From Paramacrobiotus metropolitanus (lineage: Eukaryota; Tardigrada; Eutardigrada; Parachela; Macrobiotidae), in NCBI RefSeq assembly GCF_019649055.1, contig NW_026570228.1:1984001-2048000 (forward strand): 64,000 nt of DNA. Direction: 5' to 3'. The notes below the pieces were generated by a model, which ran no database searches, was not told the DNA's origin, and worked only from the letters and a program-made list of their open reading frames with translations. Numbering within the stretch: the first letter of the stretch is position 1; every line of letters starts with the position of its first letter. Both the position numbers and the translations under genes were made by a program. Below are positions 2,841 to 17,162 of this stretch, piece by piece.

Positions 2841-5800
2841 TTGGGGAAGGCTGCGCCAACGAAACCTGCGGTGACGAACTGCGCTTCAAAGCACGGGACG
2901 CAACTTCAAAAAAAGGCCGATAGTGCGAACAAGCGCGGGATTAGGGCTAGTACAGTGAAGGCACCGGGGAAGGGCGATACGTCCAAGACAAGGATGAAGC
3001 CTTGGTCTGGAAAGGCTAAGGATGAGCTCGGTGATTCAGCTGTTGAGGCTGGAGAATTTCATCCGTCCTCGCAAGACTTCTACCACTTTGAACCAAAGGT
3101 AAAAAGCCGTCTTACTGTACGTTATATGTTGCCAAATTGTTTTGCATTACCAGGCTTATAGGACCTTCAACGTCCTGTTGAGCGATCTTGACACCACTGA
3201 GCCATTCCGTTTCGTGAATAAATCTGCGGGAGCATACAGTAATTACAAAGAATATGTCTCTACGTTGATTGAAAACGCAAGAATTATCCTCTTCCGACCA
3301 AAAGATCGATTTTTTGCTGTCAATGCGGAACCAATTGATTCCAAAGCATTCGCTCAGGCGCTCGAGCATCTGCAGCCAGAATCTGTTGAATTTGAAGCGC
3401 GAAAGCCAGATCCACCCTTCCTGGAGGGCGTGAAGCTGCGACCTTTAGACCGTATCGTTGGAGTTTTGATAGCAAAAGACCTGGAACAGCAGAAGCTGAA
3501 AAGAGAGGAACATTTGCCTGCAGCAGTGAAAACGCCTTTGAAAATTCGCGTACGTTTGCACTTCTAAAAAGCTCTTTACAATGTACCGTTGTGCAGTCTT
3601 TGGATTTATTTTTTGAAAATCATTGATAAATTATTTTGTTAGGTCAATGTCATCCTAGAGCCGCTAAAACACGAAAATGATCGGTACGGATACCAGATTA
3701 ACGACGGCGAATTTCAAGAATACCCCGCTTCGGTGGTCGATCCTTTTCTTACCGCTATTGCAATGCTAGAAAAGGATGAGAAAATATCTGAGGAGGCGAT
3801 CATGTGTCATCTCGGCAATACATATTTCGATATTAGGCGCGGTATAATAAACGAAAAGAGAAGTCCAGCTACGATCAACAAAATTTTCATCGGCAAACTT
3901 GATGCAGAAATGGTTGGTCGCATCTGGAGCGAATTTCTTAAAACCATCTTTGACGTTCGCGGTACCACACACATGGATATAATTGTGAATTTTCTAAAGC
4001 TGGTTGCCAGACGAAGTTTTGACATGAAAACTAAAGAAAAGGATACAATCGTTTTCCATTGTCTTGCCGGCTTGCCAGTCAGACTTTAGCTGGTTATCAT
4101 GCTCAAAGTTACATCGTACCGGCATTCTCTTCAGCACTTCGGATTTTTTTTGGCGAATTTTTTGTTGCGTACCACATAGATTTGGACGAAGATAACCTCC
4201 CTTCTTCGGCTACTGGTAAGCAAAAGTATTACTTATTGAGTGCGAGCTTATCATTATGAGCAGCAGCAAATATTTAGGTGATTTTAGTTACTTAACTTCA
4301 CTAAATTTGGGTAGTTTCTAGTATGTTAGTACTCGTGACCGGGCCACGGTTAATTACACAATCAGTTGTTGAAACGTTTTCAGAGGAGTACCATCTGACT
4401 GAGAAGGAACGTTTTAACGGTTTCAGTATTCGTGATTTTGTCAAATGGATTCGAAAGTGTATGCCACGCTTGCATAAATGTAAGTTCAGCGTTGCTTCTT
4501 TCGAATTATCCTGTGAAGGCATCCTCCCATTTTCTAGTGATTGATTGGGATAACGTTGAGTGTCCTTATCGCGCTCTTCTTCGACCTGAGATTGACGAGG
4601 TGTGCAATCCCGATAGCGCAATGAAACTCGGGCTGGGCGACGATGATCCTGATGTGTCCAATATTCATGTTGAGATAGCGCCTCGCCACGCAGCAAAAAT
4701 ATTCCGGCACGCTCTCCCTGTCGCGCCAGAGCAAATTATGCCCATTGAGGAAGATCTGTCTAATCGAACGCGAGTGAACGTAATGCCCATTGACGTAATT
4801 CTGTCTAATTGACAAAATTTCTTCTCAGAAACGTACCGTAATGCATATGTGCTGAAGTAATTTTTATTCTTAAGGACACTGATTGGGATTTGAACGACAT
4901 TCTGGGGACTACTATACAGCATATCGATAATCTGCTTAACTGCAACGATATGGCCAAAATCAATCACAAACTAAAACCGCCAGGGTCACGAATGGTGAAA
5001 AGTGCGCAGAATTCAATCGGAAGTCTATCCATGCTGCAACAAAATGCGATTCCCGTTTCTGAGGACTACGCATGGGACAAAGTTACGAACAAGACGTGCC
5101 CTTTTGATACAGTAGGTAGAGGAATTGGAAACTGTTTTACGAAATTGCTGGATGGTTGATTCGTTTGCAGGAATTTAACAAAGGGTTGTCTACTGCTTTC
5201 GAATCTGTGCTGGTTGAAGTAAGTTTGTCACCATCTAAGGCGATAATATATAAATAGTATTATTGTACCTACAGTGCACATGTTTTCGTAATTAAGTGTC
5301 ACTGTATCCAGCTACCGTGCCGAACGTTCAGTGGTCACCATGCCACGGTGAGATATGTCTGCTTCTTAAAACTTATTCCATTTAAACCGTAAGTCAAACC
5401 GTTGATTCAAAGCATATCTATCAGCTCTACGAAAAAGAGACGTTTCCAACGAGTTTTGTCCAGTTGACGGATTCGAGCTGTATTATGATCATGAGACCTT
5501 GCTGCTGCCAACTACAGCTCTTCTTCACCCAGCGCTGTCGATACCGGAGCTCCAGATTACGCATGAAATGGGCCAGAAGTTTAAACAGGAGGGAGCGGGC
5601 CGAATATTAGTCCATTTGTTAACCTTATTAGCAAGCTTGCACGCAAGTGGTATCCTTTGCTGGGTGGTTGTGATGCCTTAATTACGCTTAAGAGCGATAT
5701 CCGCAAGAACAAATTTATGGAAGGCGTATCGGGCATCCAAATCCTGGTCATCGGCGACCATGTTGTTATCTTTGCCAATTAGTACTGAAACCAGAGAACT

Positions 5801-6555
5801 TAGAAGCAGCGCGCACATGGGCTCAGGAACCGCTTAAGTGAGTCCGTTGTATTTAAGCCTTTTGCTCAACCTTGTGTGTGGTTTAAACGGTTGATATAGT
5901 GTCTGCTTTCGTGTTGGCAAGTGGGCCGTTTGAATTGATGAATTCTGATTTTCATTTTCTGTTACCGTAGTACTAAGTTTTGCAAGTTTCATCTTTGTTC
6001 ACTGCTGAGTTTACATGTCATTTTAGAGACCGCAATGGCAATGACATTGTGCAGTCAACCAATGCCAAGGTAGCCGGAGGCCCAGCAAAATCGGATGTTA
6101 AGGTACACATAAGCTGATATGACCATGCCACGGTCTCAGCTAATTTAATGTAGTGTTAATATTGGTGGGTTTTCTCTCTTTAATGCAGAAAACCGGAAGC
6201 TCTCAGCTGGCGCTTCGGCCTTCTGGTGGTGTTGCCGCTGCTCCGGCTATTTCCGCGCGTAACTTTAAGGTACAGGTACGTTTACGTACTTGGAGATCCT
6301 TTAAGTTGAATTTCTGATATACAGAAGCGATCAATATTGGGTGCTCTTGACGAGTCGGATAGGGAAGACAAATCGTACGGCGATCAGGATAACGTTAGTT
6401 CAGAAGAAAGAATGCGTGTTCCCTGTTTATCGATGCCAGCTCCAACAAAGCAGCGGAAATCGTTGGCAGAATTGGCTCAACGATCGCCGGCTTGCTTTAC
6501 GCCTGCAAAGCCGAATACAAAGCCGCCTAACAGACCCGCGAATCCGTCTCGTTAA
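2841..6555 (+). pseudogene. Decayed copy 1 of the C48-like protease-domain gene family
   Basis: Exon by exon this matches the better copy at 10,820-17,162. Exon 1 is 2841-3098 (Lys-rich), exon 2 3154-3549 (shared PFRFVNKSAGAY and FLEGVKLRPLDR blocks), exon 3 3643 onward; exon 4 opens at an acceptor near 4381 and exon 5 near 4535 (GDDDPDVS); a short EFNK exon starts at about 5171; the protease region is about 5400-5780. Signs of decay: the start codon aligned with copy 2's ATG is TTG at 2841. A TAG at 4087-4089 interrupts exon 3 where copy 2 reads Gln, yet homology (TSYRHSLQHFGFFL) continues past it. Two frameshifts break the protease region (near 5468 and near 5607). That domain ends in TAG soon after the conserved HVV motif, before the positions of the catalytic Asp and Cys. 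C-terminal exons still look spliceable (about 6029-6102, 6188-6276, 6325-6555). Possibly still transcribed, since a polyA signal follows. Confidence 0.7.
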
Positions 6556-6764
6556 AGCAGTTCCAAATTCTTCGAAGAAAAAGCGGATTTGACAAACCTG
6601 TGCAGATACTGCTGTTGTTCGTCTTAGCAGTATTGGTTTTCGGTATCTAGGATGACCGCATATCAAATTTGTTTGTGTCAGGTATCTTATGTTTTTAATG
6701 TTCTAGCTCCTTGTTTTAGTGTTTACAGATGATGTATGACTGTAGTGTTCGATGACTTTGTCTA

Positions 6765-6770
6765 AATAAA
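6765..6770 (+). terminator. Polyadenylation signal AATAAA after copy 1
   Basis: AATAAA lies 210 bp past the TAA that ends the last recognisable exon of the decayed copy, followed by a GTGTCTTCTC-type GU-rich stretch. This suggests the 3' end of the transcription unit is preserved. Confidence 0.5.
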
Positions 6771-7708
6771 GTGTCTTCTCAGTGCATCCTTGCATTGTCC
6801 TGGCGTGCATTGTGCTTCAATCAACCCGGATCGTACGTGCGGATGCGTAGGATTCTGGCCAAGGTTACGGATGCTCGCCCAAATTCCGTCACTAATCACA
6901 AAAATCCTTGGTATCAAGCCCAAAACAATGTCTTCACGCCTTTGGATATATGTCTCGTCTATATCTACTGCCAGGGTAACAGCACAAAAGATGCGGTCAA
7001 GTATGCACTATTTCGGTACAAAGCAACTAACCGTGGCCCGGTCAGTTTAAATTTTGCCGTGACACGGTTAATATCGGGATATGCTGTATCGAACCAGCCC
7101 AAAGAGTAATCTATTTGCAATTTTTTAATCAAGACAACTTCTTTATTTGAGTGATTTTTATTGAGCGAAGCTCGCCATGGTACATAATGCGATTAAAGTT
7201 CTCAGAGAAAAGTGGATGCGCTGTGCGCGTACTCGTCTCGATGGGGCTCGTACGCACTTATGACATTGTTAGCCGCGTGTGGTGTCTCGGCTTCAACATA
7301 TACAAAGTGAATTTTATGCACTTTACATTAGACCACAACATTTCAATATGCTGGCCTGGTGTTCTATTTGCATCAAACAAACAAACCACCGTGTCGCGGT
7401 TAGCAGGAAGGCTGGCCGTGACCCGGTTTTTGCTGATGCATTGACTGTGACCCGATTTTTAACAGTTTACTAATTACTGCTAAGAAATTGGATAGAAATT
7501 ATTAAAAGACGTACACGGACCAAGAGCGATTGCTAATACTCACTCTTGCAAACTTGAACTGGTTTACCAAGCTCACCCGACCTATCCGGAGCGAGCTTAC
7601 TATATTTTAGCGTGCTACGGTAAAAAACCGTGCTGCGGTGTTACGGTTAACAGTCGTGCTACGGCGCTACGGTACTACGGTAAACAGTCGTAACCCAATG
7701 CAATGACG

Positions 7709-7786
7709 CAGGAAATCATTGATAAACCATTTTGCTAGGTTAATATTATCACGTCAACTGCTGACAGACGACAGGGATCGCGACAG
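7709..7786 (+). pseudogene. Third relic of the C48-like family: intron end plus start of exon 3
   Basis: The sequence AGGAAATCATTGATAAACC, then a TTTTGCTAG acceptor, then GTTAATATTATCACGTCAAC matches the corresponding intron 3' end and exon 3 start in copy 2 (about 12118-12185) and copy 1 (about 3620-3690). Homology fades after about 75 bp. It shows that at least three copies once stood in this array. Confidence 0.6.
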
Positions 7787-8171
7787 AAGTCGCCAGCTCA
7801 ACTTATAACCGTGAGACGGTGGTTTCTGACCGTGACGAATTATGTAAAACCTACAGTTTTGTCGGAGATCTACACTTGTGTCTTTTAGAATTTTATCTCT
7901 TATAGACTCATTATATCGCAGTACTTAATGCTTCTGGATCAGCTCGCTTTAATTGAGTGATTCGCAATTAACATAGGTTAAAACCAAAATTACGCAGTTT
8001 ATCATTTTAACACATCACTGACAGTGCAGCTGACGAAGTCGTTTGTTTAAAAACTCAAAAACATCATCACGACCGCTTATAAACATGGGAATTCGATTTA
8101 AAAAAAAGAAAAGCATCATACCGTTCTTCTGAATACAACACAAAATATGCCCGTGCTGATGTAGGTAATCT

Positions 8172-10407
8172 TCACCCAGTTCCTTCTTGCGGAGCAGCGT
8201 TGTTCTCGGAACGTCCACGTTTTTCTACAAAATAAACACCACTACTGTATACAAGTTTCTGCAGCTGCAAAAGCGCTCCATACCATGTGTAGTCTTCCCG
8301 CTTCCCGGAGGACGTCCACGACCGCGTCCAGATGACAGTGACTTCACTGATTTCTTGCCGCTTCCGGGAGGACGGCCGCGCTTACCAGTACCGACAGCTA
8401 TACAGAGAATCAAGCGTTAGATAACAGCCAAACCAAATTCAAAACTGCACGGCTCGAATGCGGCCTCATATGCTACAATCAGTAATTTAAATACTCACTC
8501 TTTTTCTTGATGACACCGGCACCTAAAAAAAAGAAGTAAATATAAGTAATTAATGTGCAGAAGACTAACGTTAGAAGACAACATTTACACTTTCAACGTT
8601 AGAACACAGTACACGTTATTAGAACACGTGGCTGCCTGCCCCTGCCAGGGGCACCCCAAACACCACAACAAACCCGAAGCACACCTTGCTCGCGTCCCGG
8701 GGAAGTCGTTCCTTCCGAGGAAGTATCTTCCGAGGAAGTATCCGGAACGTACTCCTCAGGCGGAACATAAAGCATTCGTTCCGCTTTCGTTTTCATCGGC
8801 CCTACCAGACCTGGGCAGTTAATTTTAACTATTTAACTTAACGCGAGTTTTTTTCGAGTTAACGATTTATAACTTAACTTTGAAGCTTAACTCGCCGGGA
8901 CGAAAACTTAACTCTAGCGCAACTCAAAAATAATATAGCGCAACTCGAGTTTAACGTAACTCTGGGGGTTTCAGTTGAAAGCAAAAATGAAATTAAAAAA
9001 TAGAAAATATCAGAAAAAATGTTATTTTAACCGTGGATCGCATAAATTGCCATAATTACAAAAGTATGTGTGTACAAAATTTCTCGAGCAGACGTACACT
9101 ACCACCGTCCAAGGCATTGACTAGACTAAGAAAATGTGCATTTGAAAGCCCTGAGCGCAGCATTTCCTTTGAGTACAGTATACTACATTTTATATTACAA
9201 ACTATTTAAGTATTTTAATACTATTTGTATATGTTGAATAATGAAATTTTATATTATTTTGCAAAACGACTTAGGAACATAAGCATAGACTTCCAGTTAC
9301 TCGTTGGAAATGGCTTTCGTGACAACCTTTCGTAACGACCTTTCGTAACGGACACAAATCAACGAAAGTATGTATTAATCTGCCTTCGCTACGCTTCGGT
9401 CGATGAATATGCATCGGAGAGTCCATGCTGACGGTGAGTGTGGTCGTTCAATTTGAGCTCAATTAACAGCGTGCAGAGAACGTAATTTTTTGCGGAGCAA
9501 AATTTTGTCAACGAGAGGACAAATCATGTTCCGCACAAAAATCACACGGGAACTGATCGTCTGTGCGCTACCTGCTACCTGCTACCTGCTACCTGTAATT
9601 GTTCGCTACCTGCCCATTAAAGAAGCGTAATAATGCGGTCAACGCTGTCAAACAGCTACACTAACTTCGGTAGCCATGTGAAGCGAAATATTAGTAAAAA
9701 GTTCAGCGTTGCCGGCGCTCGGCCCCAAAAGCCAGGGTCAAAAAGAGGGAGGAATTTTGAGAGGCAGGAATTTTTATGTGGTTAAAAAGAGGGAGGAATT
9801 TTGTCAGATAAGAACTTCTTATGTTTGATTTTTTCTTGAGGGTGAGAGAAAACAGGCAGGAAACACAATAAGAACAAAACACAAAAAACACAAGCATGTT
9901 TTCTTTATATGTTTCATTCTTTTGTTTCATTCTTATTCTTTCTTATGTTTCATTTATATTTTATCTTCCTCCCTCAAGAAAAATGTGTCTCTCGCTCTCT
10001 CCCTCAGGAAAAACATGAAAAAGGAACATTAGAAAAAGCATGAATTTTAAAAATCAGTTTTAAGAAAAAAATTAATAATTGGTCTGTGTCTCAAATCTGG
10101 TAAAAGTGATATCGGTATGCATAAAAGACTACTTGAAGTTGATTAATAAAATCATGATTTCTTTTATTAGAAGTTAACTCCAGTTAACTCTAGTTATTGC
10201 GGCTAACTTAACTCGTAGCGTAACTCGCGAGCTGCGATTAACTCTTAATTCTAACTATGAGTCGAAATCTCATAACTGCCCAGGTCTGGGCCCTACCCAA
10301 TAGGCATATGTCTCCTCGGTGAGCTCTCCCCGCTTCAGCATCTCCTGTTTCATTTTTTTAATCATTCTTCCAGGGCAGGGACGAGGCGGTTCTTGTTGGC
10401 CAGACAT
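8172..10407 (-). CDS. AT-hook (HMGA-like) DNA-binding protein, first exon split by a hAT insertion
   Basis: Coding parts on the minus strand: 10407-10289, then (after the inserted element) 8797-8685, then 8522-8499, 8397-8284 and 8224-8172. Removing the element and one 8-bp duplication copy gives 423 nt, 140 residues, with every splice in phase and a TGA at 8174-8172. The N-terminal half is acidic with TSSEDTSSEGT repeats. The C-terminal half has two strong AT-hooks (KRGRPPGSGKK and GRGRGRPPGSGK) and a weaker third (EKRGRS). AT-hooks bind the minor groove of AT-rich DNA, so a chromatin role is likely. As sequenced, the insertion leaves the N-terminal 39 codons cut off, so this allele may be null or may use a downstream start (a Met codon lies just past the insertion site). 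It diverges from the protease-like copy 2, with 412 bp between their starts. Confidence 0.7.
8806..10288. mobile_element. Non-autonomous hAT-type transposon, 1,483 bp
   Basis: The ends are perfect inverted repeats of at least 16 bp (CAGACCTGGGCAGTTA at 8806 and its complement ending at 10288), flanked by the perfect 8-bp direct repeat GGCCCTAC (8798-8805 and 10289-10296). A terminal CAG plus an 8-bp target duplication is the hAT hallmark. Both ends carry many subterminal TTAACT/AACTCG words, also typical of the group. No transposase frame is seen inside. The interior has AT-rich simple sequence and a heptamer array. The perfect duplication and ends imply a fairly recent insertion, here into an exon. 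Confidence 0.9.
9567..9595. repeat. Heptamer microsatellite (GCTACCT)4 inside the hAT element
   Basis: Four consecutive GCTACCT units with one further partial unit (GCTACCTG downstream at about 9604). It lies wholly inside the transposon. Confidence 0.85.
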
Positions 10408-10819
10408 GTCTACACGGTTGAAAATCTAGCAGAACAAACTACCAGTGAGCGCAAAAAAATGGCTTCTTATGAACTGCTTAGGCTCCACATGCACAGACTT
10501 GAAACATGCCAACTGAAAGTTCTCATTTTCAGGGCGCACAATGTGCAGCGCAGTAGTGCGGGTGCAGGAAGTACTATGAGTCGTATCCGTTTAGCATGTA
10601 ACTCACTGTACGGGCGGGTGCTTTTTCTACTTGGCACCACAGTAGTACAGGCATGCTTTGACACGCTCGCTATCGTGACACGGATCTGCTTAACACCGAT
10701 CTGTCCAGCCGTTGCACAGTACAGTTTCAAGCTCGTCTCACTTAAAGTGTTATTGAAAATTGTCAGAATTTCAGTTTTGAGATTCCTTTGACTACGATGT
10801 CTGATGATCGTTTGGCGCA

Positions 10820-13800
10820 ATGGGTAAAGCTCCAATGAAACCGAAGGCGACGAACCGCGATCGTGCGAGCAGGACGAAACTGCTGGAAAAGGCAAAGGCA
10901 GCCAGCAAAGCGGGGAAGGGAAAGGATTCTGAGAAACCATCAACGAGCCTGCACAAAGTCACTAAGAAGCGGGGGACCACTGGTACGCACACGAAAAAAG
11001 CTTCGAAGCGCAAGTATATTGCTGAATCCGATGAGGACGACATTGAAGCTGATCCTAGCTATCCGGACGCAGAGGACAATGAAGACTTCAAGAAATCCAA
11101 GCAAGAATTGTATCAGTTCAACAGAAAGGTAAAATTGCCGTTTGTGTTTGTGTGCGTGTGGTTGTGTGTGTGTTTGTGAGCCATATGGTTTGTTTGCAGC
11201 CGTTTGAGACCTTCGAGGTCTTCCTCAGTGATCTTGTCATGGCGAAACCTTTCCGTTTCGTCAATAAAAAGGCGCGGGAATACCACAGGTACAAATCCCG
11301 TCTAACTGCTGAGTTTGAGTCGGCCAAGGTTATCGCATTTGGAGCTTCCGTCGTGGATGTAGAGCCAGTAGATCCCAAAGCCTACGAAAAAGCTCGCAAG
11401 CGCCTATCAAACCGAGAAACTGTTCCCTTCCTAGAAGGCGTAAAGCTTCGCCCTTTAAACCGTATGGTTGGACTCCAGATACTTCGTTCTTTGGACGTTA
11501 AAAGAAAGAAAATGGAGCGGAACTTAGAAGACGGAAAAAAAAGAAAGGGTCCGATGATTATTCGCGTAAGTTGCGCCCGTGTATCAGTTTAAAGCTAGAG
11601 TTTCACTTTGTAGATTCTTAGAAGTGGTAAATGACTAAATTACGACATTTTTGCCACCCCGTAGACGGTTAATGAGTAGAACAGTTGTACATAAAGCCAT
11701 TGCACGGCTGCACAACTGCAGTAGATTCGCGTAAGTTTCGCGTATCGGTATCACGTATCGGTTAAAAGCAATTTTGTCGATTCTTAGCCGAGGTACGGTT
11801 ATAAAACCGTGGAATGGTTAAAATGCGACATTTTTGCCAACCGTGGCACGGTCATAGAGCACTGTACACCTTGGTGCAAGTTTGCGTAACTGCACGGTTA
11901 ATGAGTACAACAGTTGTACATAAACATAAAGCCATTACACGACTATACAACTACAGTAGATTCGCGTAAGTTTCGCGTATCGGTATCGCGTACTGGTTTA
12001 AAAGCAAGTTTGTCGATTCTTAGCCGTGGTACGGTTATAAAATCGTGGAATGGTTAAAATGTGACATTTTTGCCAACCGTGGCACGGTTATAGAGCACTG
12101 TATACCTGGAAGTTATCAGGAAATAATTGATAAACTTTGTTGCTAGGTCAACGTCATCGACTCGCCGCTGACAAACAATTTGGATCGCTATGGCTACCAG
12201 ATAGCCGACCCTGAGTTAAATTTCGACCAGTTCCCCGCTACAGCAGTTGATTACGTCTTTACTGCAATCTATATGGTCATCGCGAAAAGTGACAACAAGG
12301 AAGAGGAAGACGAGATTACTGAGGATATGGTTATGCTTCATCTCGCAAACACGTATTTCAAAATTCGGCGCAGTACGATACGTAACGAGAAGTCGCCTGC
12401 GACTATTGACAAAATTTTGACTGGAAACTTCGTGAGAATGATGACTGATGTTACTTGGAACTGCTTTATTAAGACCATCTTCGAGCTCCGCAATTCCGAA
12501 CACTTGAAAATTGTTGTGAATTTCTTGGCACTGTTTGAGAAGCGCTCCCATAACCTAGAACAGAAAAAGAAGAAATCACGTCGCCAAGACTTAGCTGAAA
12601 GTTTGGCCACGGAAACAGTTTGGCCGATTCCATATGAAGCTTTCCAGTGCCTAAACTCCTTACCTGTCCAACTTCAGTTAAGAATAATGAAAAAGTTGAC
12701 GTCCTACCGGAATGCTCTACAACACTTCGGTTTTTTCCTTGGCGTATATAAAAGCGCCGCCGCGTCAGTCGTGCCAAAAGTAAGGCAAACATTGCACTTC
12801 ACTCACGTTGTACAATTTTCTGTTAAGAACCAGTTTTTTATTGTTCCGATCATTTGCCAGCAAACAAGTTAGAGCGATATGTACGGTGTCATAGTGGCCG
12901 ATTAACGGTAACCGTGTTACGGTATACAGCATTTTCAACCCGGCGCACGGTCATTTGTGAATTCATTTATGCTTAAACTTTTTCAGAAAAATACCATCTG
13001 ACGCGGAAAGAACATCATGATGGATTTAGTATTCACCTTCTAATTCCCTGGATTCGAGGGGAAATACCGCGCTTATTAAACCGTAAGTTGTGATGAGTAA
13101 ATTCTAAATCCTGTGATGAGTAATTAATTGGGACATTACTCGTAGTCAAGTTCCGTCCCGCACTTCTGCGACGTAATATCGACGAACGTCCGAACCCCCA
13201 ATGCGAAATGGATCTCGAACCTGGTGACGACGATCCTGATGTGTCGACAATTTGTTTTGAATGGAGTGCTCGCTACGCAGATAAGGTTTTCTTAGAGGAC
13301 CTTTCGCGCAAGCCTGAAAATCCATGCGCATCGATGGGCGAGACCCTGCCGACTGTTGTTCGTCATATTGACAAACTACTTTGTTCTGGCGATGTGGGAA
13401 GAATTGGTGAAGAGCTAAAGCAAGCCGGATGTGTGGTTTTGGACGAAGTCCAGAGTGCCTCTAGAAGTCTGTCCTTGATGGCCACACATGATACACCGGT
13501 TTCCGATATTTACGAGTGGAACAAAATCATTAACAAGGCGTCTCCTTTCGATTCCGTAAGTTCCAAGAAAGCTTGAGTGTTGTAATCCATTGCTGTATGT
13601 GTGCTTGGTTTCAGGAATTCAACAATTTGCTTTCTGCTGATTTCCTATCCGTGCGGGTTGAAGTAAGTTTGGCACTAGTCAAAGCCATATTTGCATATGG
13701 TGTACGTAATCTTAATTGGTTAAATCAGATTTACGTAGATGGGTATGAGTGGTCGTTATGGCGCTTGCCTTTCCTCGGGGTTTAAACTTGCAGTGCCTAA

Positions 13801-16800
13801 TGGTTACCGTGCCACGGTTAGTTGATCTCTCCGCTTGTTCTAACTTAGTTAATATATTTTTCAGTCATATATTAAAGTCACTGATTCGACGAAGCAGCAG
13901 AAGATCACGGACCAAGTCCGGGCGAAATTAGGCGATATTTACCAGCATTTCGGAGAGCATACGTACCCAACCAGTTTCGTCCAATTCGACGGCGGATATG
14001 AGCTATACTTCGATCAGGACAACTTGCTGCAGCCAACTACAGCCTACCTTGATTCCCCCTGGGCGATACCCGAGCTCCACATTACGCGTGAACATGCTGA
14101 GAAGTTTCGGGAAGAGGGTTCCATGGGGAATATGGTACCGTTTGTGAGCCTCGTGTGTATACTTGCGCGGAAGTGGTATCCCAAGCTGGGCGGATGCGAT
14201 GCCATGCTTAAACTTATGTGCAACATCGACGCCAACCTATTTATGAAAGGTGATCGTGGCATCCAACTCCTGGTTGTTGGCTTGCATGTTGTAACCTTTG
14301 CAAGAATTCGAAGCATTGAAGGAAACCAGCGTTATTATTACTGGGATACCATGAACAAACCTCCACCTGAAGAACTTTATAGAATTTTTGCAGCATTGAC
14401 AGGCCTGCCTAAAAAAAGTTGTCTTAAAATCACCCAGTTTTATGTGCAACAGCAGAAGGAGAACGAGTGCCTTCCCCTTGCCAGTGCACTTATGCTTGAA
14501 TTTGCGGCAGAAAAGAATGTCCGTACGGTTAATTTCGTCTTAGAAACCGTTCCGGAAGAGCTGTTATTAGCTTATAGAACGAAAAAGCGTCCCCAATTTT
14601 TGTACGGTCCGGACAATACTAAGCCAGTGACAGATTTGGAAAAAGAACATACCGTACAATTGCCCGCAGTTTTCGCAAAGGTACGTTGCAGTGACGCTTA
14701 AAGTCACTAATCTCGCTTACGGTGTCTGTGTAACTAGTTGGACTCTCGCTACTGGTCTTATGAAATTCCAAAAGACTTCCGGGCAGTTATGCTCATGGGC
14801 AAGGCCTGGCACCTGGGAATGTGCCGATTCCCCCAAGCAAGATTCCCGATGTTTGCGTATTTCGTTGAGAACAAGCTTTTGATGTTTAAGGTTAGTGTGA
14901 AACTTATTTTAATCAACTTCAAAGCTGCACATTGAACTGAAGCATATTTGCCGTAACGCGGTTATACTGTGCACCGGCTTAGCCGTTAGGCTTAATCGTA
15001 CCTAGATTACTTTTCGCGGCAACACTTGAGTTGTAAGTTTGGTATTGCAGGACTCTCTCAGTAACGCCCGGTACGTCGGAAGGGCTCGCGACGCAGAAAA
15101 AATTGCCTTGGCAGGTCACACTATCGACCGGGAGTTCCAGTTTATGCTTAGACATTCGCGGAACGGGCCAGGGCGTGCTGTGTTGTCTCACCAGGGGAGT
15201 GTCTTTACCCAACGAAGAGGACATTCATCTCTCGCACCATCCGAAAGAACATCTGGCCAAAAGCGCAAACGGCAGCGGATTCGCGGAACTGGCATCACTG
15301 ATGGAGATGTGGGTGCTACTCAAGCTGATCCACGAGAATTGGACACTGTTATTGAAGCAGACGAGTGCGAATCAAGCTGCTTGGCTGCTACAATGGCAGA
15401 AGGCACCGTCATCAGTGATGTGAGTGCTGAAACTCGGACTTCGCATGGGGAAGGCTCGTCTCCAGCGCGTTCCCAAAGGGCAACTTCGCCGGCACCTGCC
15501 CGCTTCATCGGTATATTTAGTTCTGCTTTCGATATGGCACCAGCTTCCTGCCTCAATGATGTCAACCCGTTCGGGCAGCAGACCAGCAGAACTGGCGGCG
15601 ATGGATACATCGATGATCGAGCACCCGATTTTGCGCAGTGGAACTTACCGCCTGTTGCCCATGAAGTCATATTGGGCTCGGAAGGAGCTGTAATTCAGCC
15701 CGTGATGCCGTCCCTGCCAGCTGCAGAAGCATCTACCCCTAATCCTGAGGGTCCGACTGAGCCTTCCCCATGGAGCTCGCGTCGTGGAAGTCCTGATAGT
15801 CAAGATTCCGAAAGTTGTGATGAGACTAGTGGATCTGATGCAGATGTTAAGTATGTTTCGAATGGTTTTGTAAGTAATAAATGCCTTACCAGAGCACCAT
15901 TTGTTAACCCGTGACACGGCTGTAATTTACCTCATCTACGCCTAGACATTTAATTAGTGTGCTGCGTGTAGGACTCTGTTTTTGATGATGGTAGCCATGA
16001 TGAAGAAGATAGGGCTGGCGTTACATGTGATGCGGTAAGTATTACAGTGAACTCATTAACACCGTGAAACGGTAGTATGATGCCTTTGGTTGCAGGATAT
16101 TGCACCTCATGGCCACCGGCAATCCGAGACTGAGTCACCCACACTCGATTTACCGCTTATTGTCCGTGAATCGATGAATTTAGCAAATGATGTGCAAGCG
16201 ATTGAGCACCAGGAGGTAAGGAGGAGATGCGGATCGGATAACGATGTGCGCGCTACTGAAACGGTTGCAGCTACCGGGGCTACGAGCGAAAGTGTTGATG
16301 TAAGTAATCAATGCCGTTCCAGAGCACCACTTTTTTACCGTGACACGGCTGTAAGTTACTTCATCCTAGTGTGCTGCGAGTACACCAGCCCGACAAAGGC
16401 GGGAAACAACTACCCCTATTCCTGGCGGTCCGAGTGAGCCTTCAGCATCGCGCTCCCGTCGAGACAGTCCCCTGCCTCCGACTCCAGTACCGCCGAGATC
16501 GGAGTTACCGGTTTACCCATCAGACGCGGCCGACGATAAATCAGGTGGATCGGCTGAGACAGCTACGACTTCGACCGACAATGTAAGTAATCAAGCGCGC
16601 CCCTCTTTTACCGTGACACGGCTGTAAGGTACTTCATCCTTCGCCTTGACATTTAAATAGTGTGCAGCTACCCCTATTTCTGGCGGTCGAGGTTGCTCAC
16701 AGCCTCCGCCTCCAGTACGTGCTGTGAGTCAAGATTCCGAAAGTAGTGAAGAGGCTAGCGGATCTGATGCAGACGGTGATGAGGCTACGACCTATGGTTA

Positions 16801-17162
16801 TGTAAGTAATACATGCCATGCCAGAGCACCATTTAATAACCCGTGACACGGCTGTAATTTACCTCATCTACGCCTAGACATTTAATTAATGTGCTGCGTG
16901 TAGAGGCATTTGTGATCACAATACCATTTATTTTAACATCGACAACGGTTAGATCAAAAACTTGGATGCTCAAACGAAAGTTGCGTGGAGTGGAATTCGC
17001 CGAGAACTGACCCAGGCAAAGCAGCAGAGTAACCAGCTGAACAAGAAAGTCGGGGAGCTTGAAAAGGAGGTCAAGAGCCTGAAAACGGGAAATGCCAACT
17101 TGCACACTGAGTTTGAAAAACTTAATAAACGATTCAACGATTTCGAGCGCTCTTCCAATTAG
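10820..17162 (+). CDS. Copy 2: large nuclear-like protein with a diverged Ulp1/C48-type protease core
   Basis: Proposed exons: 10820-11128, 11200-11565, 12147-12779, 12987-13082, 13146-13555, 13615-13662, 13865-14680, 14738-14890, 15051-15869, 15972-16034, 16096-16299, 16370-16582, 16661-16801, 16953-17162; about 1,490 residues. The start is a real ATG. The N-terminus is Lys-rich, then acidic. Exon 7 holds the C48-like core: His codon 14285-14287 (GLHVV), Asp 14345-14347 (YYYWD), Gln-Gln-Gln 14447-14455, Cys 14468-14470 (NEC). His to Asp is 20 residues and Asp to Cys 41, close to Ulp1 spacing, and the Gln-before-Cys layout matches. In known C48 enzymes this fold cleaves SUMO-type conjugates; the substrate here is unknown. 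Exons 9-13 are Ser/Pro/Asp-rich and repetitive. Exon 14 is a short coiled coil (Lys/Glu heptads). The exon 3 to exon 4 join is out of phase with the simplest sites, so one boundary is wrong or the copy carries a lesion. Confidence 0.65.
11566..12146 (+). repeat. Intron 2 of copy 2: tandem ~234-bp duplication that copies the splice donor region
   Basis: Two long direct repeats begin near 11720 and 11954. Each contains GTAGATTCGCGTAAGTTTCG, GTCGATTCTTAGCC and the palindromes GCCGAGGTACGGT/GCCGTGGTACGGT and ACCGTGGCACGGT, and ends at ATAGAGCACTGTA. A weaker partial copy precedes them. The TTCGCGTAAGTT core equals the real donor of exon 2 (ATTCGC then GTAAGTTGCG at 11566), so decoy donors are repeated inside the intron. 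Confidence 0.75.
15730..16902 (+). repeat. Duplicated exon-intron modules in the 3' part of copy 2
   Basis: Introns after exons 9, 11, 12 and 13 are homologous. Each starts GTAAGTAAT, most contain CCAGAGCACCA, and all contain CCGTGACACGGCTGTAA and then TTAC or TACT-TCATC and a CTAG or ATAG-type acceptor. The exons on either side repeat too: the C-terminus of exon 9 and exon 13 share SQDSES and SGSDAD, and exons 9 and 12 share the GP-SEPS block and an Arg-Arg-X-Ser-Pro motif. The simplest reading is serial duplication of an exon plus its downstream intron. Confidence 0.75.

Follow-up and report, generated by a model that had tools for sequence, protein, structure and literature searches.

A clustered 13-letter palindrome in introns and spacers of one tardigrade gene family: a candidate site for a dimeric DNA-binding protein

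Why does one gene family carry a single short palindrome over and over in its introns and spacers? The question is raised by a 64 kb stretch of the Paramacrobiotus metropolitanus genome (hereafter the window; C8:1984001-2048000 of assembly G000, 169.8 Mb in 533 contigs), in which two copies of a gene designated here gene X are accompanied by the 13-letter palindrome ACCGTGNCACGGT. This word was the one searched for, and matches with at most two mismatches were regarded as near-copies. The sites are real; they are clustered in the loci of one family, absent from its mapped exons and overall conserved above their flanks, and the spacing of their half-sites is strict.

Distribution of the palindrome

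At up to three mismatches the window contains 43 matches, compared with a mean of 17 (standard deviation 4.2, largest value 26) in 100 dinucleotide shuffles; 33 of them lie inside 4338-16852 and 10 elsewhere. All 22 near-copies fall within this interval, in agreement with the initial annotation, which had reported about 20 near-copies in 12.5 kb and few or none in the rest of the window, and no site at up to two mismatches occurs in the 6 kb that adjoin the window on its left. Three copies are exact (11840, 12076 and 13806). Enrichment of palindromes in general was considered as an explanation and rejected. A count in the window, made without a shuffle control, gave 36 perfect palindromes whose 6-base arms flank a single central base, and three of them are ACCGTGNCACGGT.

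Within gene X the matches are confined almost entirely to introns. In copy 2 (exons 10820-17162; exons 3 and 4 of the model are not joined in frame and were left as found), 16 of the 17 matches at up to three mismatches lie in 1888 bp of introns and one in 4455 bp of exons. In five gene copies, counted over the mapped part (exons 1-9 or 1-7), 28 sites are present in 6369 bp of introns and none in 15407 bp of exons (Fisher p 1e-15). Introns 2, 3, 6 and 8, where mapped, harbor sites in most copies, the exceptions being intron 2 of copy 1, which has none, and intron 8 of copy 2, which has one three-mismatch site only; introns 1, 4, 5 and 7 contain no site at up to two mismatches. The sites of copy 1 are found in introns 3 and 6 and ahead of the last exon (4338, 5337 and 6122). 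The earlier placement of almost all near-copies in family introns or spacers holds for the introns of copy 2, with the qualification that seven of the 22 (7030, 7056, 7388, 7415, 7609, 7627 and 7808) belong to the spacer past copy 1, and one (10672) is upstream of copy 2, outside the family introns as modelled.

In the whole assembly ACCGTGNCACGGT occurs exactly at 30 places versus 15 for the reversed pattern, and 21 of the 30 are in loci of the family: C8 (3), C78 at 271.9-290.3 kb (3), C94 (1), C416 (8) and C502 (6). The concentration in one family, noted initially for the window, thus extends to the genome, and the distribution is not the uniform one that would have contradicted it, the 21 copies being located in five of six paralogous loci. 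Among the nine remaining exact copies, seven (C15, C22, C62, C67, C155, C158 and C208) have no further site at up to two mismatches in the 4 kb fetched, and the other two, on C60, share flanks that are inverted copies of each other. At one mismatch there is no excess (378 places versus 368 for the reversed control). The six loci (C8, C78, C94, C416, C488 and C502) together contain 134 sites at up to two mismatches, 83 of them at zero or one; the stretches counted have 9 to 32 sites per locus, where 0.0-0.4 are expected per fetched stretch. Pairs of the core CCG-TGNCA-CGG, whose flanks lean weakly towards TAACCGTGNCACGGTTA, at a distance of 8-38 bp gave 19 rows genome-wide and none for the reversed control. 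Seventeen of these rows are in the six loci, and the remaining two appear to be unrelated tandem repeats: C10 carries a 23-base unit in duplicate, and C219 has thirteen three-mismatch matches within 2 kb.

Exons of the family are present in all six palindrome-rich loci. According to tblastn, exon 7 of the window gene has matches on C8, C78, C502, C106, C488, C416, C1 and C250, and exon 3 on C8, C78, C502, C416 and C94; on C94 most sites (151.6-152.5 kb) are about 4 kb away from the family exon fragments. The loci are partly colinear over kilobases and have sequences other than gene X in common, among them homeobox genes (C416:18046-18324, C78:285585-285830 and C488:2099-2293). The flanks of the C78 locus contain no site at up to two mismatches and ten at up to three (262-270 kb), and one site (294-298 kb). 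In C106 (G000:C106:239001-247000, positions 3336-5975), about 91% identical to C502, gene X exons 5-9 abut without introns and no palindromes are found; this copy is apparently a processed retrocopy, which would have lost the sites along with the introns.

Two other properties of these loci were noticed. In C488 several segments are duplicated internally with about 99% identity, pointing to recent rearrangement or assembly trouble, and C94:136001-160000 has many diverged internal repeats of another kind beside the family fragment.

Architecture of the sites

In 98 non-redundant sites at up to two mismatches, there is little variation at positions 2-4 and 10-12 (90-96 of the 98 agree), the central base varies freely, and the flanks weakly favour TA at either side. 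The arrangement CCG-N5-CGG was found 116 times in 86.4 kb, compared with 5-28 times at the other spacings from 0 to 20 (paralogous repeats counted); direct repeats of CGG or CCG at distance 5 are somewhat frequent too (62 versus 15-48). The two arms change independently of each other. In two-mismatch sites both changes fall in the same pair in 2 of 38 cases versus 5.2 expected. When 105 non-redundant sites were picked by the core alone, double changes numbered 13 in the outer pair, 2 in pair 5/9 and 5 in pair 6/8, where independence, calculated from the counts at single positions, predicts about 12, 3 and 5; 7 of these 20 double changes are paired, approximately the third expected by chance. 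Changes that would preserve a wobble pair are about equally common in the sense and antisense orientations (7 and 6 distinct, 11 and 8 in all), and 12 distinct changes (20 in all) break the pair. Fixed spacing combined with independent arm changes is, as far as the letters tell, the pattern of a two-halved protein on DNA and not that of a hairpin.

Neighbouring sites, too, tend to keep certain distances: of 19 non-redundant neighbour pairs at up to 60 bp (two mismatches), 6 are 26-28 bp apart, 3 are 31-32 and 5 are 52-55, with 5 elsewhere, as raw counts, and the spacing becomes flatter once three mismatches are allowed. The letters between neighbouring sites differ (for example, in C94), and therefore the sites are not a plain tandem repeat. 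In addition, at 7661-7680 of the window the half-site ACGG is directly repeated every 8 bp, adjoining palindromes.

We suppose, with moderate confidence, that the palindrome is bound by a sequence-specific DNA-binding protein acting as a homodimer, and that many such sites act together in cis on the duplicated locus. In this case the numerous sites in introns and spacers, often 26-28, 31-32 or 52-55 bp apart, would act jointly, and the joint binding would regulate or mark the duplicated multi-gene locus, the output presumably being transcription or chromatin state. Of the three mechanisms initially proposed, a protein-binding site fits best, and the other two, an RNA hairpin and a mobile repeat, are less likely.

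The RNA hairpin would form in the pre-mRNA, with a stem of about 7 bp and a 3-base loop, and would aid splicing or recruit an RNA-binding protein. It would agree with the strong preference for introns and with the position of the intronic sites, whose ends, outside intron 2, fall some 22-100 bases short of the 3' splice site (with approximate positions for part of the intron ends). However, paired double changes are no commoner than chance, wobble-keeping changes do not favour the sense strand, and many changes break the pair; the independence of the arms and the lack of strand bias make the hairpin rather unlikely. Besides, a subtype with a mismatch on one side only, ACCGGGCCACGGT, is common to intron 3 of three paralogs, and there are sites at 7030-7808, past an AATAAA at 6765, in a spacer that may or may not be transcribed.

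Conservation, rival origins and parallels

The mean identity of sites is 0.81 and that of flanks 0.70 in 251 between-locus comparisons (193 higher, 57 lower), which share sequences and are hence non-independent. An aligner could anchor on such words; against this caveat stands the closer pair C8-C78, with 0.88 in sites versus 0.79 in flanks (p 0.009, the sites being higher in 16 of 20). Controls, obtained by shifting C8 sites alone by 18-30 bp, had no excess in C78 (0.806 versus 0.800), C502 (0.673 versus 0.696) or C416 (0.663 versus 0.690). The palindrome ranks first among the 56 gap-free 13-base windows of intron 6 in four paralogs; in intron 3 the best window (of 31) is shifted from the site by one base, and in intron 2 the top four of 188 overlap it. 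Up to five paralogs retain palindromes in corresponding introns (2, 3 and 6). This conservation at homologous intron positions of diverged paralogs bears out the early suggestion that the palindrome itself is maintained. An alignment of the spacer (6990-7930) from C8, C78 and C488 shows sites that differ mostly by substitutions; C78 is without a stretch of about 100 bases around 7808.

Could the sites nevertheless be neutral leftovers, which arose in a single ancestral locus and were multiplied by segmental and tandem duplication? The six loci are indeed paralogous over kilobases, some sites are not conserved, and several near-copies are explained by tandem duplication: a repeat with 90% identity in intron 2 (11665-11871 / 11894-12107) doubled its sites, and an exon-intron repeat with 88% identity (15798-15971 / 16727-16903) spans introns 9 and 13. 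By eye, introns 11 and 12 of copy 2 also resemble one shared unit. Descent from one intron duplication, the case that the initial annotation had set against its own proposal, accounts for these copies and fails for introns 2, 3, 6, 8 and 10 and the spacer, which are mutually non-homologous. Moreover, descent covers the spread among loci but not the retention of sites that outlast their flanks and coincide with, or overlap, the best-ranked windows of introns 2, 3 and 6, which makes purely neutral inheritance distinctly unlikely.

Quite improbable in our opinion is a role of the palindromes as recombination or gene-conversion sites serving the rearrangement of the duplicated family. The paralogs are mutually rearranged, and 11 of 136 homology ends (8%, double-counted by symmetry) are within 12 bp of a site versus 4.0% of random positions (for example, C8 6125 and C78 21848 in the script's numbering); however, only a few distinct places produce the excess, and conserved words often bring local alignments to an end. 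The tie between homology breakpoints and palindromes was judged unconvincing and rejected. A very short mobile palindromic repeat spreading by insertion is very improbable indeed, as its many copies in non-homologous introns and the few sites opposite gaps in a paralog (C416 1094 and 5418, C502 10203 and 11454), also explained by loss through deletion, are outweighed by the genome-wide counts given above and by the close paralogs C8, C78 and C488, which differ chiefly by substitutions at the same positions.

Several observations weigh against the binding site of a dimeric protein. Besides the non-independence of the comparisons, three of the eight printed directed pairs are non-significant (C8-C488, 0.89 in sites versus 0.84 in flanks, p 0.74; C502-C78, p 0.3; C416-C8, p 0.12), and the shifted control sites have a small excess in C488 (0.853 versus 0.818). 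The sites 10672, 7627 and 7808 are not conserved in C78. The family copy on C1 has no sites and the partial copy on C250 two, each with two mismatches; a homeobox relative on C5 (C5:1403971) has no palindrome at up to two mismatches in the 6 kb fetched. Of the introns shorter than 100 bp, just three have sites at up to two mismatches, all in copy 2 (introns 10, 11 and 12; 61, 89 and 85 bp). Finally, no protein is known to bind the palindrome. The motif, in six spellings, is absent from the 5.39 million papers searched, and of the 51 papers matching a broader word search none of the 15 listed appears to concern it.

The dimeric binding site has parallels among known systems. NFI (TTGGC-N5-GCCAA), AP-2 (GCC-N3-GGC) and the lambda operators are sites of dimeric proteins, and the palindrome resembles them in its inverted half-sites, fixed spacing, free centre base, independent half changes and the presence of several sites nearby. 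In contrast to them, it is concentrated in the introns of one family and its protein is putative; it matches none of the three. The conserved sequence element (CSE) of protocadherins and the promoter and enhancer motifs of olfactory receptors are cis-elements shared by clustered families; like them, the palindrome recurs through the family members and is kept in paralogs, whereas its location is in introns and spacers and its number per locus is as given above. The MSL recognition elements (MRE) of Drosophila and the rex motifs of Caenorhabditis elegans serve chromatin entry and dosage compensation; they are likewise clustered in particular chromosome regions, but the palindrome is confined to kilobase loci. 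With Rickettsia palindromic elements and the bacterial repetitive extragenic palindromic (REP) sequences, which are short palindromic mobile repeats, it shares the many palindromic copies, and differs in showing neither an excess over the genome nor clear insertion polymorphism among close paralogs.

A stronger version, in which the locus has a dedicated protein that recognizes it via dozens of dimer sites in introns and spacers, often 26-28 bp or double that distance apart, and that would mark, silence or activate all genes of the block together, as a private operator system, is tentative and rather doubtful. If true, it would mean an animal gene family with operator sites of its own in introns, which have stayed conserved over several rounds of duplication, and would provide a small testable model both for the co-evolution of a locus-specific regulator with its sites and for introns holding a regulatory code that exons exclude.

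Gene X and neighbouring features

The name 'protease-like', given initially to the family, is weakly backed. The exons of gene X that were scanned have no Pfam family over the cut-off, and the best sequence match of the exon 7 profile to solved structures (PDB) has E 1.6. The AlphaFold model of exon 7 is too poor to use (mean predicted local distance difference test, pLDDT, 37), and Foldseek with this model gave no match at E 0.001; among the higher-probability rows, below that standard, were OtDUB and XopD, which we take to be Ulp1-like. His-Asp-Gln-Cys is the catalytic pattern of C48 / Ulp1-like proteases; by eye, these four residues are aligned in copy 2, C78, C502 and C106, while C1 lacks the Cys and the C416 row ends before these residues. 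C48 / Ulp1-like protease is a candidate label for gene X, as yet unproven. The viral contigs searched contain no relative of exon 7.

Table 1. Gene copies and palindromic sites, in window coordinates
Feature	Position	Strand	Basis or remark
Gene X copy 2, 14 exons modelled	10820..17162	+	GT..AG boundaries, open exon frames, tblastn paralogs
Gene X copy 1, shorter, stops in places	2841..6555	+	tblastn with copy 2 exons; last exon by comparison
Palindrome, 1 mismatch, copy 1 intron 3, ACCGGGCCACGGT subtype	4338..4350	.	
Palindrome, 1 mismatch, copy 1 intron 6	5337..5349	.	
Palindrome, 1 mismatch, ahead of copy 1 last exon	6122..6134	.	
Palindrome pair 26 bp apart (7030, 7056), spacer	7030..7068	.	
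Palindrome pair 27 bp apart (7388, 7415), spacer	7388..7427	.	
Near-palindromes 7609 and 7627, weaker ones, direct half-sites	7609..7681	.	
Palindrome, 1 mismatch, spacer	7808..7820	.	retained in C488, absent from C78
Near-palindrome, 2 mismatches, upstream of copy 2	10672..10684	.	C78 identity 0.77 vs flank 0.94
Intron 2 module, tandem copy 1: 11787 (3 mismatches), 11806 (2), 11840 (exact)	11787..11852	.	
Intron 2 module, tandem copy 2: 12023 (2 mismatches), 12042 (3), 12076 (exact)	12023..12088	.	
Intron 3 sites spaced 28 bp: 12883 and 12939 (3 mismatches each), 12911 (1)	12883..12951	.	
Exact palindrome, copy 2 intron 6	13806..13818	.	best-conserved 13-base window of intron
Weak site, 3 mismatches, copy 2 intron 8	14950..14962	.	
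Copy 2 intron 9 site, 2 mismatches	15908..15920	.	
Copy 2 intron 10 site, 1 mismatch	16061..16073	.	
Copy 2 intron 11 site, 1 mismatch	16337..16349	.	
Copy 2 intron 12 site, 1 mismatch	16610..16622	.	
Copy 2 intron 13 site, 2 mismatches	16840..16852	.	duplicate of intron 9 site

Between the gene copies, at 8225-8416 on the minus strand, there is a short frame with two AT-hook-like GRPPGSGK motifs recognized by eye; it has no Pfam match at 0.01, and DNA similar to this region is present in C78 and C488. A C2H2 finger appeared below the cut-off in the Pfam scan; together with the homeodomain matches it points to an animal source, and a lipocalin family looked up for the same purpose gave a single match, FABP-like by eye. 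To the left of the gene family, at 1023-1437, lies a degenerate repeat array with a unit of about 50 bp by eye (TTACTCCTTTCTTTAAACGAGACAG...).

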